This document shows, in pieces, positions 10,409 through 48,312 of a stretch of DNA of 64,000 nt (positions are counted from its first letter, which is position 1; each line of letters starts with the position of its first letter). The DNA is taken from positions 3,146,938 to 3,210,937 of the forward strand of contig NZ_KE386573.1 in assembly GCF_000427685.1 (NCBI RefSeq), read 5' to 3'. Origin of the DNA: Haloplanus natans DSM 17983 (GTDB lineage: Archaea; Halobacteriota; Halobacteria; Halobacteriales; Haloferacaceae). The notes beneath the pieces were generated by a model, which did no database searches, was not told where the DNA came from, and worked only from the letters and a program-made list of their open reading frames with translations. The position numbers and the translations under genes were made by a program.

Positions 10409-11197
10409 TCAGAGGTACGCGGCGGCGTCGTCGGCCGTCGCGCCCTCGTGGGTGACGGCCGTGAGGGCGGCGACGATGGCCGCGGGGTCGTCGCGCTGCC
10501 AGACGTTCCGGCCGAACATCACGCCGTGGGCGCCGGCGTCGACGGCGTCGGCGGCCATCTCCAGCACCTCGCGATCCGTCTCCGTCGCGGGGCCGCCGGC
10601 GATGTACACCGGAACGGGGGCGGTGTCGGCGATGGGTTCGAAGGCGGCCGGCGTCCGCGGGTAGTGACACTTGAGCACGTCGGCGCCGAGTTCGAAGGCG
10701 ATGCGCGTGGCGTCGTGGATCCGTTCGGCGTCGAGGTCGTCGTCGAGACGCGCCCCCCACAGCGTCGGCTCGACGACGAAGGGAATGCCGGCCTCCCGAC
10801 AGGCTTCGGCGGCGCCGGCGGTGAACTCAACGTTGTCGGCGAGGACCGCCTCGCGTTCGCGGCCGTAAACGAGTGCGACCTTGGCGGCGTCGGCGCCGAC
10901 GCGGGCCGCCTCGCGGGCGCTGAACACCTGTCGGTGAATCTCCGCGTCCTCGTGGGCACCGGGGATCGTCGAGTCGTGGAACAGATCGAGCGTGACGATG
11001 CGGTCGACATGGGGGTAACGGTCGAGCAGATCCTCGAACCGTCGGACCAGCGGGACGCCGGCCAGGATGCCGTCCGGGCCCGCGTCGAGTACGCGCCGAA
11101 GCGTCGCTTCCGGGTCCTCGAACCCCTCGTGAACCCCCCAGTGGAGGCCGTGATCCAGCGCGACGACGACGCGAGTGTCCGGGTCGACCGAGTGCAT
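10409..11197 (-). CDS. class I (DeoC/LacD-like) aldolase
   Basis: This is a 262-residue TIM-barrel aldolase of the fructose-bisphosphate aldolase class I / DeoC superfamily. The Schiff-base lysine is in GADVLKCHYPRTP (K ~178). Barrel strands VVVALDHGLHWG, GILAGVPLVRRF, PVYIAGGP and GVMFGRNVWQ are clear, with the phosphate-binding GGP and GRN loops at the end. It is divergent from the PdxA-like/FGGY pair, and the three are best read as one catabolic locus in which the aldolase cleaves a phosphorylated sugar or sugar acid. An ADTH-synthase-like role in aromatic biosynthesis is less likely given the neighbours. Confidence 0.8.
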   Translation of the reverse strand: MHSVDPDTRVVVALDHGLHWGVHEGFEDPEATLRRVLDAGPDGILAGVPLVRRFEDLLDRYPHVDRIVTLDLFHDSTIPGAHEDAEIHRQVFSAREAARVGADAAKVALVYGREREAVLADNVEFTAGAAEACREAGIPFVVEPTLWGARLDDDLDAERIHDATRIAFELGADVLKCHYPRTPAAFEPIADTAPVPVYIAGGPATETDREVLEMAADAVDAGAHGVMFGRNVWQRDDPAAIVAALTAVTHEGATADDAAAYL

Positions 11198-11227
11198 GAC
11201 ACCGGATTGAACCGACGCCGACTTATA

Positions 11228-11303
11228 ATGATTATTGTAACTGTTTACCGGTGGTTCGCCAAGACGGGTCGGCGAACCACCGGTGATGACTTACAATAAT
11301 CAC
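11228..11303 (+). repeat. palindromic repeat, family A (copy 3)
   Basis: TGATTATTGTAA, box CTGTTT, arm ACCGGTGGTTCGCC, loop AAGACGGGTC, partner arm GGCGAACCACCGGT, box GATGAC, then TTACAATAATCAC. The outer and inner stems pair perfectly while the six-base boxes do not. It lies in the divergent promoter region between the aldolase and PdxA-like genes, so it could also act as an operator or as a transcript structure. Confidence 0.85.
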
Positions 11304-11388
11304 CAGTAGGCGTGTGGATGGGCCGACAGGATCGACGACGTGTCGGGGGCCAGAAAAGTTGAAATGACAGTGCTTGTTCATACCACAC

Positions 11389-12396
11389 ATGGAGAACGCC
11401 AAGCCACGGATCGGGCTGACGATGGGCGATCCGGCCGGGATCGGTCCGGAAGTGACGCTGAAAGCACTCGCCGACGACGGCGTCCGGGACGCGGCCCGGG
11501 TCGTCGTCTACGGCGACTACGATCACCTCACGTCGGTCCGGGATCGGCTCGGACTCGGCGTCGGCCTCCGGCGGATCACGGCCCTCGACGAGGCGGCATA
11601 CGGGGACGCCGTGGACGTGGTCGACTTCGACAACGTCGGGACGTTCGAGTACGGCGACCTGCGAGCGGCGAACGGCCGCGTGAGTCTGGCCTACGTCGAT
11701 CGGAGCCTCGATCACGCCATCGATGGACGCCTCGACGGGCTCTGTAACGCCCCGATCCACAAGGAGGCGATCAACCTCGCGGGCAGCGAGTACGCGGGCC
11801 ACACGGCCATGATGGCCGACCGAACCGACACCGAGCGCTACACGGCGTTGCTCACCGACGGGGAGATCAACGTCACGCACGTGAGCCTCCACATCCCACT
11901 GTCGGAGGCCGTCGAGCGCATCACGACCGAGAACGTGTTGGACACCCTCCGAACCACCCACGAGGCGCTTCCGGAGGTCGGCGTCGAGGACCCCTCGCTC
12001 GGCGTCGTCGGGGTCAACCCCCACGCCGGCGACGGCGGCGTGATCGGCTCGCTCGACGACGAGGCGGTCGCGCCGGCGGTCGAACGGGCACGCGACGAGG
12101 GGATCGACGCCCAGGGGCCGTTCCCGCCCGACAGCGCGTTCAACAGGGCGCTCGACGACCACTACGACTGTATGGTGGCGATGTATCACGACCAAGGCCA
12201 CATCCCCCTGTTCGTCAACAGCCACGTCGACGGCGGCGGCGTCGGCGCGACGGTACTCATCCTCGGGTTCCCGTTCGTGCGCGCCACGACGCTGCACGGG
12301 ACCGCCTACGACATCGCCGGCGAGGGAATCGCCGCCCCCGACAGCATGATCACCGGCATCACGCTCGCGGCGGACGCCGTGCGCCAGCGCGCATGA
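11389..12396 (+). CDS. PdxA-family 4-phospho-hydroxyacid dehydrogenase
   Basis: This 335-residue protein belongs to the PdxA family (NAD-dependent 4-hydroxythreonine-4-phosphate dehydrogenase and the PdxA2 four-carbon acid enzymes). The divalent-metal histidines are visible in EYAGHTAMMADRT, GVNPHAGDGG and MYHDQGHIPLF, and the start GLTMGDPAGIGPEV and CNAPIHKEAI are family signatures. Haloarchaea have no deoxyxylulose-dependent B6 route, so a PdxA2-like catabolic role with the adjacent FGGY kinase fits better: oxidation of a phosphorylated C4 acid with decarboxylation to a triose phosphate. The ATG at 11389 follows an AT-rich promoter region. Confidence 0.85.
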   Translation: MENAKPRIGLTMGDPAGIGPEVTLKALADDGVRDAARVVVYGDYDHLTSVRDRLGLGVGLRRITALDEAAYGDAVDVVDFDNVGTFEYGDLRAANGRVSLAYVDRSLDHAIDGRLDGLCNAPIHKEAINLAGSEYAGHTAMMADRTDTERYTALLTDGEINVTHVSLHIPLSEAVERITTENVLDTLRTTHEALPEVGVEDPSLGVVGVNPHAGDGGVIGSLDDEAVAPAVERARDEGIDAQGPFPPDSAFNRALDDHYDCMVAMYHDQGHIPLFVNSHVDGGGVGATVLILGFPFVRATTLHGTAYDIAGEGIAAPDSMITGITLAADAVRQRA

Positions 12397-12412
12397 CGGG
12401 AGCGTCCCGACG

Positions 12413-13942
12413 ATGACGGAGCGCTACCTGCTCGGCTACGACATCGGGACGACGAACTCAAAGGGGGTGCTCGTCGACCCCGACCTGAACGTGGTCGCCT
12501 CGGCGTCGATTCCACACGGCGTCTCAACGCCCGAACCGGGGTGGGCGGAACACGACGCCGAATCGGTGTGGTGGGGAGAGTTCACGCGGATTACGCGGCG
12601 ACTCCTCGACGAGACGGCGGTGACGGCCGATCGGATCGTCGGCGTCGGCATCAGCGCGCTCGCCCCGAGCGTGGTGCCGCTGGACGAGGCCGGCGACCCG
12701 ATCCGGTCCGGAATGCTGTACGGTATCGACACGCGGGCCAAGGCGGAGATAGAGCTCCTCAACGACCGGATCGGAGTCGATCGGATCTACGACGCCTGCG
12801 GCAACTCGCTCACCTACCAGTCCGCGGGGCCGAAGCTCCTCTGGTACAAGCGAAACGAGCCGTCGCGCTACGAGCGAACCGACAAAATCGTCGACGCCGT
12901 GGGGTACGCCGTCTCCCGACTGACCGGGGAGTACGTGATGGACAACGCCGTCGCCGCCTTCTATCACCCGCTCTACGACCTGTCGGCACGGGAGTGGAAC
13001 GACGCGATGGTCGAGGCAGTCGGCATCGACCGCGACCTGCTTCCCGAGACGAAGTGGTCGACGGAGATGGCGGGCGAGATCACGCCCGCGGCCGCCGAAG
13101 CGACGGGACTCGCCGCCGGGACGCCCGTGGTGACCGGCACCGTCGACGCCCTCGCCTCGCTGGTCGGCGTCGGCGGCGTCGACCCCGGGGATACGGTGTT
13201 CATGTACGGGACGACGGGCGTCGTCTACACCACGCTCGCCGAGGAGCGGACGGCGCCGGAGCTGTGGGCCAACCCGCACTGTCTGGAGGGGCGCTACGTC
13301 ATCGGCGGCGGGATGGCGACCTCGGGGGCGATCACCGAGTGGTTCGTCGAGGAGTTCGTCGGCGACGCGCCGGCGGGCCGGGAACGGTACGCGTGGCTCG
13401 AGGCGGGTGCACGCGACGTACCCCCCGGCGCCGAGGGGCTGATCGTCCTCCCGTATTTCAGCGGGGGCCGGACCCCGATCAACGACGACCTCGCCCGCGG
13501 CACGATCACGGGGCTGACGCTCGATCACACGAAGTTCCACGTCTACCGCGCCATCCTCGAGAGCGTCGGCTACGGGTTCAGACACAACCTCAGCGTCATG
13601 AAGCGGGCCGGCGTGCCGGTCGACCGCGTGTTGGCGAGCGGCGGCGGCGCCGAGAGCGACCTCTGGCGACAGGTCGTCAGCGACGTCACCGGCGTCGAAC
13701 AGGAGTACGTCACCACGCCCATCGGCGCGCCGCTCGGCGTCGCCTATCTCACCGGCCTCGGCACGGGCGTGTTCGACGGGTTCGGGGCGCTCAAGTCGTC
13801 GATGACGGTGTCGAGCACGACGACCCCGGACCCGGAGCGACACACCGTCTACGACGAGTACTACGGCGTCTACGAGGATCTCTACCCGTCGATGAAATCG
13901 GAGATGCACCGCGTCGCCTCGCTCGGGAACGAGTCGGGGTGA
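12413..13942 (+). CDS. FGGY-family carbohydrate kinase
   Basis: This 509-residue sugar kinase has the FGGY/actin-like fold. The N-terminal phosphate-1 loop is LLGYDIGTTNSKGVLVD, the catalytic-aspartate region is SGMLYGIDTRA, the phosphate-2 region is VTGTVDALASLVGVG, and the adenosine motif is VLASGGGAESDLWRQVVSDVTG. Length and motifs resemble gluconate/xylulose/erythritol kinases; the substrate is not determinable. It starts 16 bp after the PdxA-like gene and is surely cotranscribed, so it probably phosphorylates the sugar or sugar acid that PdxA then oxidises. Confidence 0.9.
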   Translation: MTERYLLGYDIGTTNSKGVLVDPDLNVVASASIPHGVSTPEPGWAEHDAESVWWGEFTRITRRLLDETAVTADRIVGVGISALAPSVVPLDEAGDPIRSGMLYGIDTRAKAEIELLNDRIGVDRIYDACGNSLTYQSAGPKLLWYKRNEPSRYERTDKIVDAVGYAVSRLTGEYVMDNAVAAFYHPLYDLSAREWNDAMVEAVGIDRDLLPETKWSTEMAGEITPAAAEATGLAAGTPVVTGTVDALASLVGVGGVDPGDTVFMYGTTGVVYTTLAEERTAPELWANPHCLEGRYVIGGGMATSGAITEWFVEEFVGDAPAGRERYAWLEAGARDVPPGAEGLIVLPYFSGGRTPINDDLARGTITGLTLDHTKFHVYRAILESVGYGFRHNLSVMKRAGVPVDRVLASGGGAESDLWRQVVSDVTGVEQEYVTTPIGAPLGVAYLTGLGTGVFDGFGALKSSMTVSSTTTPDPERHTVYDEYYGVYEDLYPSMKSEMHRVASLGNESG

Positions 13943-48230: not shown

Positions 48231-48312
48231 ATAGTGTTTATCGTAACTGTGTACCGGTGGTTCGTCAAAACGGGTCGGCGAACCACCGGTGGTGACTTAC
48301 AATACTCACTAT
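48231..48312 (+). repeat. palindromic repeat, family A (copy 4)
   Basis: ATAGTGTTTATCGTAA, box CTGTGT, arm ACCGGTGGTTCGTC, loop, partner GGCGAACCACCGGT, box GGTGAC, TTACAATACTCACTAT. Inner arm is nearly identical to copy 3 (11228), and outer ends pair as ATAGTG / CACTAT. Confidence 0.85.

Follow-up and report, generated by a model that had tools for sequence, protein, structure and literature searches.

The PdxA family holds enzymes of different roles. PdxA of Escherichia coli acts in vitamin B6 synthesis, the TphB-type terephthalate dihydrodiol dehydrogenase/decarboxylases act on a substrate that carries no phosphate, and PdxA2, an NAD-dependent D-threonate-4-phosphate dehydrogenase with a catabolic role, is partnered by a DUF1537 kinase (DtnK). 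PdxA2 is named as a catabolic paralog, and PdxS and PdxJ are used as markers for the two B6 routes, in the passages of PMC9997740 cited here. A catabolic PdxA with a kinase is already a known kind of system; the specific oddity of the PdxA-like protein of the haloarchaeon Haloplanus natans DSM 17983 is the loss of Lys274 (E. coli numbering). Its gene lies in a stretch of 64,000 nucleotides (contig NZ_KE386573.1, positions 3,146,938 to 3,210,937; hereafter the window), in which a reading made from the sequence alone had placed an aldolase, a PdxA-like protein, and an FGGY kinase together at positions 10409–13942.

The open reading frame (ORF) listing and a Pfam search confirm that these genes stand together. 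All three are intact, with frames open over their full length and Pfam scores far over the cut-offs. The PdxA-family NAD-dependent dehydrogenase, which tree and residues place in an FGGY-linked subclade, spans 11389–12396 on the forward strand (335 residues, or 340 with a possible TTG start at 11374; PF04166, 274 bits). The FGGY-family carbohydrate kinase follows downstream on the same strand after a gap of 16 bp (12413–13942; 509 residues; FGGY_N 167 bits and FGGY_C 120 bits). The class I DhnA/DeoC-type aldolase (10409–11197, reverse strand; 262 residues; PF01791, DeoC/LacD, 116 bits) is divergent from this pair, the aldolase and pdxA starts being separated by 191 bp. The window has no DUF1537 match, either in the query matches, which covered 9–15 kb, or in the ORF list and the Pfam search. 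The pdxA-like gene is the only one of its family in the genome.

A catabolic rather than a B6-biosynthetic role of the locus is supported. The sequence-only reading had argued for such a role from the absence in haloarchaea of the B6 route through 1-deoxy-D-xylulose 5-phosphate (DXP), and genome content bears this out: pdxS is found in all six genomes tested (control 10/14) and PdxJ in none of six (control 4/14), both sets including the window's genome and having four genomes in common. Because this genome has pdxS and lacks pdxJ, the DXP-type route is absent and the gene is not for vitamin B6. A true PdxA making vitamin B6 was rejected on this genome content, and we regard it as next to impossible. 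The protein does pass the NCBIfam pdxA model, scoring 292.5 bits where the cut-off is 290.35, a margin of 2 bits, and it has the metal histidines, Asp247, and Asp267 of E. coli PdxA. Against this stand the missing partnership with PdxJ, the altered substrate residues (see following), and a patchy distribution, PdxA being present in 66 of 392 genomes of the same order, at 73 places, when counted at E ≤ 1e-40. The D-threonate-4-phosphate dehydrogenase model gives 237.6 bits, far below its cut-off of 583.

Among the 50 of these 73 places that were opened (47 as stretches of 4.0–20 kb and three as 4-kb loci), 40 have DUF1537 beside PdxA. DUF1537 is therefore the usual partner and FGGY the partner in the window, as the sequence-only reading had it. 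The ten places without DUF1537 are the window, one of the two copies in each of G399, G152, and G182, and the genes of G381, G386, G010, G246, G212, and G085 (the last as a 4-kb locus only). In a tree of 70 PdxA rows, built with a "quick" method and including extra rows from named plasmids, the haloarchaeal proteins split into two sets. The larger has 49 rows, 47 of them DUF1537-linked (with one locus counted twice, L027 being L075), an E. coli/PdxA2-type pocket, and a support of 94 (not starred) in the Shimodaira–Hasegawa-like approximate likelihood ratio test (SH-aLRT). The smaller has ten rows including the window gene, an SH-aLRT of 99, and no member beside DUF1537; G399 has one gene of each clade. 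The bacterial rows are long and were flagged as such, and the ten-row set is independent of their placement. The phylogenetic comparison with PdxA2 that had been proposed thus leaves the window protein outside the DUF1537-linked set.

Within the ten-row clade, the five rows linked to the window-type FGGY (hereafter the FGGY1 five) group with an SH-aLRT of 100. The rest are L077 and L078, with DgoD (galactonate dehydratase), PfkB, and a rhamnulokinase-like FGGY, and L144, L145, and L146, whose PdxA relatives are 49–50% identical to the window's and adjoin another FGGY kinase with a GGGGGLYPLD motif. L144 and L145 also hold 2-hydroxyacid dehydrogenase genes, and L145 and L146 one or two sets of ATP-binding cassette (ABC) transporter genes. 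A LarA/DUF362-like gene is often found beside DUF1537–PdxA pairs, in haloarchaea and in Rubrobacter (L002, L003, L004, L123, and others). Nine bacterial PdxA loci on plasmids (L123, L185–L189, and L232–L234), a small sample, show DUF1537 in two, sets of DapA-like and alcohol dehydrogenase genes in five, and dioxygenases in two; within the stretches shown, FGGY is near PdxA in none of the nine. No literature report of PdxA and FGGY together in haloarchaea was found in a search that most subscription journals lay outside, and neither was one on Lys274 of 4-hydroxythreonine-4-phosphate dehydrogenase or one linking an FGGY kinase to apulose.

The residues of the ten-row clade set it apart. In E. 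coli PdxA, we take the substrate phosphate to anchor the ligand and positions 136, 137, 274, 283, and 292 to be substrate positions. The alignment comprises the ten rows of the clade and 63 others, with E. coli PdxA as the reference. All ten keep the metal ligands His166/211/266, Asp247, Asp267, His136, Thr137, and Arg292, as in the E. coli enzyme. In the window protein the metal ligands are His168/212/267, and Phe275, Val289, and Leu302 replace Lys274, Asn283, and Asp296, so that of the PdxA2 pocket (Lys274/Asn283/Arg292/Asp296) only Arg292 is left. Lys274 is replaced throughout the clade, by Phe in the FGGY1 five and by Tyr in the remaining rows. Asp296 is lost in all ten, where Leu or Met stands in its place. 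Asn283 is retained outside the FGGY1 five, in which it gives way to Val or Ala. Lys274 is Lys in all 63 other rows, which are the 47 DUF1537-linked haloarchaeal rows, each with all four pocket residues, and 16 others including E. coli PdxA and TphB-type proteins.

The two PdxA-family proteins that adjoin genes for ring-hydroxylating dioxygenases (L232 and L234) are taken as TphB-type from this context. They too are altered on the substrate side relative to PdxA, having lost His136, Thr137, Asn283, Arg292, and Asp296, but they keep Lys274. The window protein shows the reverse: it keeps His136, Thr137, and Arg292, has lost the lysine, and has no dioxygenase neighbors. The positions at which TphB departs from PdxA should accordingly be those that face the substrate's phosphate end, and Lys274, which the two share, should serve the common beta-hydroxy-acid core. 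On this view, the window enzyme keeps most of the phosphate side and has lost the lysine of the shared core; we infer a phosphorylated substrate that either lacks a carboxylate or has it bound in another way. Because Lys274, present in every aligned decarboxylating relative, is Phe here, the earlier suggestion that the enzyme oxidizes and decarboxylates becomes doubtful. The close analogy with PdxA2 enzymes acting on phosphorylated C4 acids fares no better, given the separate clade and the changes at Lys274, Asn283, and Asp296. The closest PDB sequence neighbors are nonetheless PdxA2 proteins (2hi1 and 6e85). An AlphaFold model built from six sequences (mean predicted local distance difference test score, pLDDT, 67) has a predicted fold that sits with PdxA/PdxA2, with Z scores of 25.3 to 4jqp, 24.3 to 6e85, 23.9 to 2hi1, 22–23 to E. 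coli-type PdxA, and 18–20 to TphB, all at a root-mean-square deviation of 6–9 Å.

The FGGY–PdxA pair is conserved beyond the window. Among the 392 genomes, only three others have a PdxA more than 60% identical to the window's (G381, 76%; G386, 66%; G399, 62%), and each of these genes lies in one 20-kb stretch with an ortholog of the FGGY kinase. Such orthologs, 58–68% identical, occur in five other genomes (G381, G370, G238, G399, and G386) and in Halobellus rarus. The two genes are adjacent in G381 (L091) and in H. rarus (L059), both Halobellus-type genomes. Those of H. rarus are 76% and 66% identical to the window's, and their locus also has genes for a galactonate dehydratase, another FGGY, an IclR-type regulator, and an ABC sugar transporter. 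In G399 (L094) and G386 (L095), an ABC transporter and a COG4091 gene separate the two, which are some 6 kb from each other. The pairing is more than chance. In L095 (9062–10542), which comes from a genome bin, the FGGY ortholog runs over two frames, through either an assembly error or a real change.

The kinase matches both FGGY domains, as do the xylulokinases and the tetritol and pentulose kinases of this family. Its best NCBIfam model is the xylulokinase XylB (TIGR01312), but its 313.2 bits are below the cut-off of 380.25, and Ala84-Pro85 align with Met77-His78 of E. coli XylB, which presumably contact xylulose. The loop at this place reads LAPSV in the window and Halobellus kinases, LHAAM or LFAAM in the COG4091-linked kinases of L092, L093, and L094, and IFAAM in that of L095 (in the frame printed). 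Given this difference, the kinases that have PdxA but no COG4091 beside them may act on another substrate than the COG4091-linked ones. The nearest bacterial relatives opened are from Deinococcus (43–45% identity, three loci) and Vibrio (39%). The Deinococcus loci have an ABC transporter in all three, a fucose isomerase gene in two, and alcohol dehydrogenases in one; the Vibrio locus has a RuBisCO-like protein and two genes for thiamine pyrophosphate enzymes. Hence, FGGY relatives of 39–45% identity stand with ketose-forming enzymes (fucose isomerase or polyol dehydrogenases) or with transketolase-like enzymes.

The aldolase shares a Schiff-base lysine and the phosphate motif GRNVWQR with the archaeal class I fructose-bisphosphate aldolases (FBA) and DhnA-type aldolases (ADH synthase, LsrF). 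In an alignment with 1w8s and MJ0400 (2qjg), its Lys176 stands opposite Lys177 of the Thermoproteus-type FBA 1w8s, and according to the cited part of PMC11519228 it is Lys177 that forms the Schiff base in archaeal class I FBA. It passes no NCBIfam subfamily model, unlike these enzymes (104 bits for the archaeal class I FBA model NF040816, against a cut-off of 430), and forms a haloarchaeal subfamily of its own, with orthologs 54–65% identical in 15 other genomes of the 392. In 11 of the 13 ortholog loci opened, a second gene similar to triose-phosphate isomerase (TPI) lies within the stretch, mostly next door, and these loci often also hold a YjbQ-type gene, an FGGY gene, and a GatC-type permease of the phosphotransferase system (PTS). 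On a Halapricum plasmid (L124, 6454–9858), the ortholog, annotated as a hypothetical protein, lies between glpK and dhaK. In L069 it follows a DUF1537 kinase whose best model is 3-oxo-isoapionate kinase (499 bits, below the cut-off of 700). All these contexts involve triose phosphates and point to dihydroxyacetone phosphate (DHAP). Of the 41 loci of the wider subfamily (E ≤ 1e-46), eight, the window included, are no more than 6 kb from a PdxA gene, against 0.10 expected under uniform placement in the 24 genomes with both. L069 (7157–11100), with its OiaK-like kinase, an oxidoreductase that we would call ApnO-like, the aldolase ortholog, the second TPI-like gene, and a GntP-like permease, is itself a candidate haloarchaeal apionate locus.

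Together, we read the locus tentatively, at a probability of roughly 40%, as a catabolic gene set for a polyol or sugar acid. The FGGY kinase would phosphorylate the terminal CH2OH of a C4–C6 polyol or sugar acid. With NAD and its metal site, the PdxA-like enzyme would then oxidize the carbinol beside the phosphomethyl group to a 1-phospho-2-ketone. From this ketose-1-phosphate, either the class I aldolase or general metabolism would form an aldehyde and DHAP. According to the cited part of PMC9700705, haloarchaea use an aldolase reaction of this kind in another pathway, where a FucA-type enzyme splits a ketose-1-phosphate into DHAP and glycolaldehyde. The intact genes, the conserved pair, the separate clade, the residue changes, and the lack of the DXP-type B6 route are observations. 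We infer the order of the steps, the substrate, the chemistry with its loss of decarboxylation, and the aldolase's membership in the pathway. Several observations weigh against this reading. Neither a transporter nor a regulator adjoins the three genes in the window; G370 and G238 have the FGGY ortholog and COG4091 and lack PdxA; and no aldolase of the window subfamily was found in the stretches of the other four FGGY–PdxA loci. The second TPI-like gene is absent from the window genome. The eight aldolase–PdxA loci come from four genera, so that the nominal Poisson P of 2e-13 is too strong and overstates their independence. Acid substrates are suggested by the DgoD-like and 2-hydroxyacid dehydrogenase genes in the neighborhoods of further members of the ten-row clade, and by DgoD in the Halobellus loci (571 bits with the galactonate dehydratase model; cut-off 311). 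Finally, the role suggested for Lys274 is argued from conservation rather than from a structure, and the pocket of the predicted model (residues 267–294 and 301–314 with pLDDT below 50) is too poor to read.

Because of the DgoD and hydroxyacid dehydrogenase genes, acids stay in play, and the FGGY kinase may phosphorylate a sugar acid that the PdxA-like enzyme oxidizes and decarboxylates as PdxA2 does, to DHAP or to a ketose-1-phosphate that the aldolase cleaves. The pocket changes would then only widen the range of acids, for example, to 2-branched or longer ones. DgoD in four loci of the ten-row clade, the PdxA2 sequence neighbors, the existence of FGGY gluconokinases (210 bits with that model, below the cut-off), and the occurrence of the aldolase subfamily near PdxA in the DUF1537 clade as well are consistent with this, but the loss of Lys274 and Asp296 in all ten rows and of Asn283 in the FGGY1 five speaks against it, and we hold it for unlikely, though worth keeping in view. 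Since the lysine kept in all decarboxylating relatives is Phe in the window protein, we slightly favor simple oxidation of a phosphorylated polyol over oxidative decarboxylation of a phosphorylated acid. The order might also be reversed, the PdxA-like enzyme turning a free sugar acid into a ketose that FGGY phosphorylates before the aldolase splits the ketose-1-phosphate into an aldehyde and DHAP. Ketoses are the usual substrates of FGGY kinases, the best model is a xylulokinase, and FGGY relatives adjoin isomerases and polyol dehydrogenases; yet His136, Thr137, and Arg292, which are lost in TphB-type proteins, are kept, a phosphate in the substrate is for this reason still likely, and the reversed order is quite improbable.

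The part of the aldolase is weighed differently. FGGY and PdxA may form one pathway and the aldolase be an unrelated neighbor, for example, a second fructose-bisphosphate or fructose-1-phosphate aldolase. Its absence near the pair in all four other loci and the dispersed repeat that separates the divergent genes (see following) speak for this, but seven of the subfamily's 40 loci besides the window have PdxA at a distance of 6 kb or less, and we consider an unrelated aldolase rather unlikely. The sequence-only reading, which had put the aldolase in the pathway, thus stands as far as a recurrent PdxA–aldolase association goes (8/41) and is doubtful if the aldolase is meant as a fixed part.

The COG4091 gene that adjoins the kinase ortholog in G399, G386, G370, and G238, and is absent from the window's genome (G000) and from G381, gives a further lead. 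The haloarchaeal protein matches PDB entries 3upl/3upy (E = 3e-89), which we take to be Brucella DXR-II. Four haloarchaeal COG4091 proteins have the DXR-II residues at four of five named positions (121, 250, 320, and 351) and Ser at 229. In the cited part of PMC3847144, which describes DXR-II and, as its relatives, two families of oxidoreductases without a known function (DLO1 and DLO2), position 229 is an absolutely conserved Thr in DXR-II and Pro, Ser, or Ala in DLO2; given this Ser, the haloarchaeal proteins may be either DXR-II or DLO2. IspF is found in none of six haloarchaeal genomes tested (control 9/14). Genes of an acetoin-dehydrogenase-like complex occur in three of the four haloarchaeal stretches (E3 only in L092, E2 and E3 in L094, and E1/E2/E3 in L095), and E1/E2/E3 genes in three of the four bacterial COG4091 loci opened (Priestia, Terrarubrum, and Rhizobium, the exception being Deinococcus, with different residues in its protein). 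COG4091 loci also carry an FGGY kinase or a glucitol PTS (L092, L094, and L095 in haloarchaea; L126–L128 in bacteria).

This suggests a candidate breakdown of 2-C-methyl-D-erythritol by a kinase or PTS, the reductoisomerase in reverse, and acyloin cleavage. No literature report of 2-C-methyl-D-erythritol catabolism through a DXR-like enzyme was found in the same search, most subscription journals being outside it. COG4091, the kinase ortholog, and a window-type PdxA occur together in two of the four haloarchaea (G399 and G386). The FGGY-linked PdxA clade might then be polyol-phosphate dehydrogenases without decarboxylation that arose around a methyltetrol economy, in which 2-C-methyl-D-erythritol goes through its 4-phosphate (MEP) and DXP to acetyl-CoA and glyceraldehyde-3-phosphate, the first MEP-pathway steps run backwards for catabolism; the window pair would be a version of this that serves a related polyol or the corresponding acid. 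The odds are well against so specific a scheme.

Between the aldolase and pdxA, a palindromic element without strand assignment lies at 11224–11308, with 32-nucleotide arms that are 88% complementary. It is one copy of a dispersed palindrome of about 80 bp, with a second copy in the window at 48231–48309 and at least 40 copies in the genome (40 places, all of the 40 scored among 152 candidates); the 12-base core pattern has 12 occurrences against none for the reversed control. As a copy of a dispersed repeat, it is not a dedicated operator of the locus, and a shared operator of aldolase and pdxA was rejected.

If the DXR-II link is true, it would also assign a function to the DXR-II-like genes of organisms that make no use of the MEP pathway. 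Because PdxA-family genes are automatically named pdxA, a whole haloarchaeal catabolic clade is hidden behind the name of a vitamin. In the ten-row clade, a swap of kinase family accompanies the replacement of the core lysine, which makes it a direct test case of how a decarboxylating dehydrogenase changes its substrate or its chemistry.

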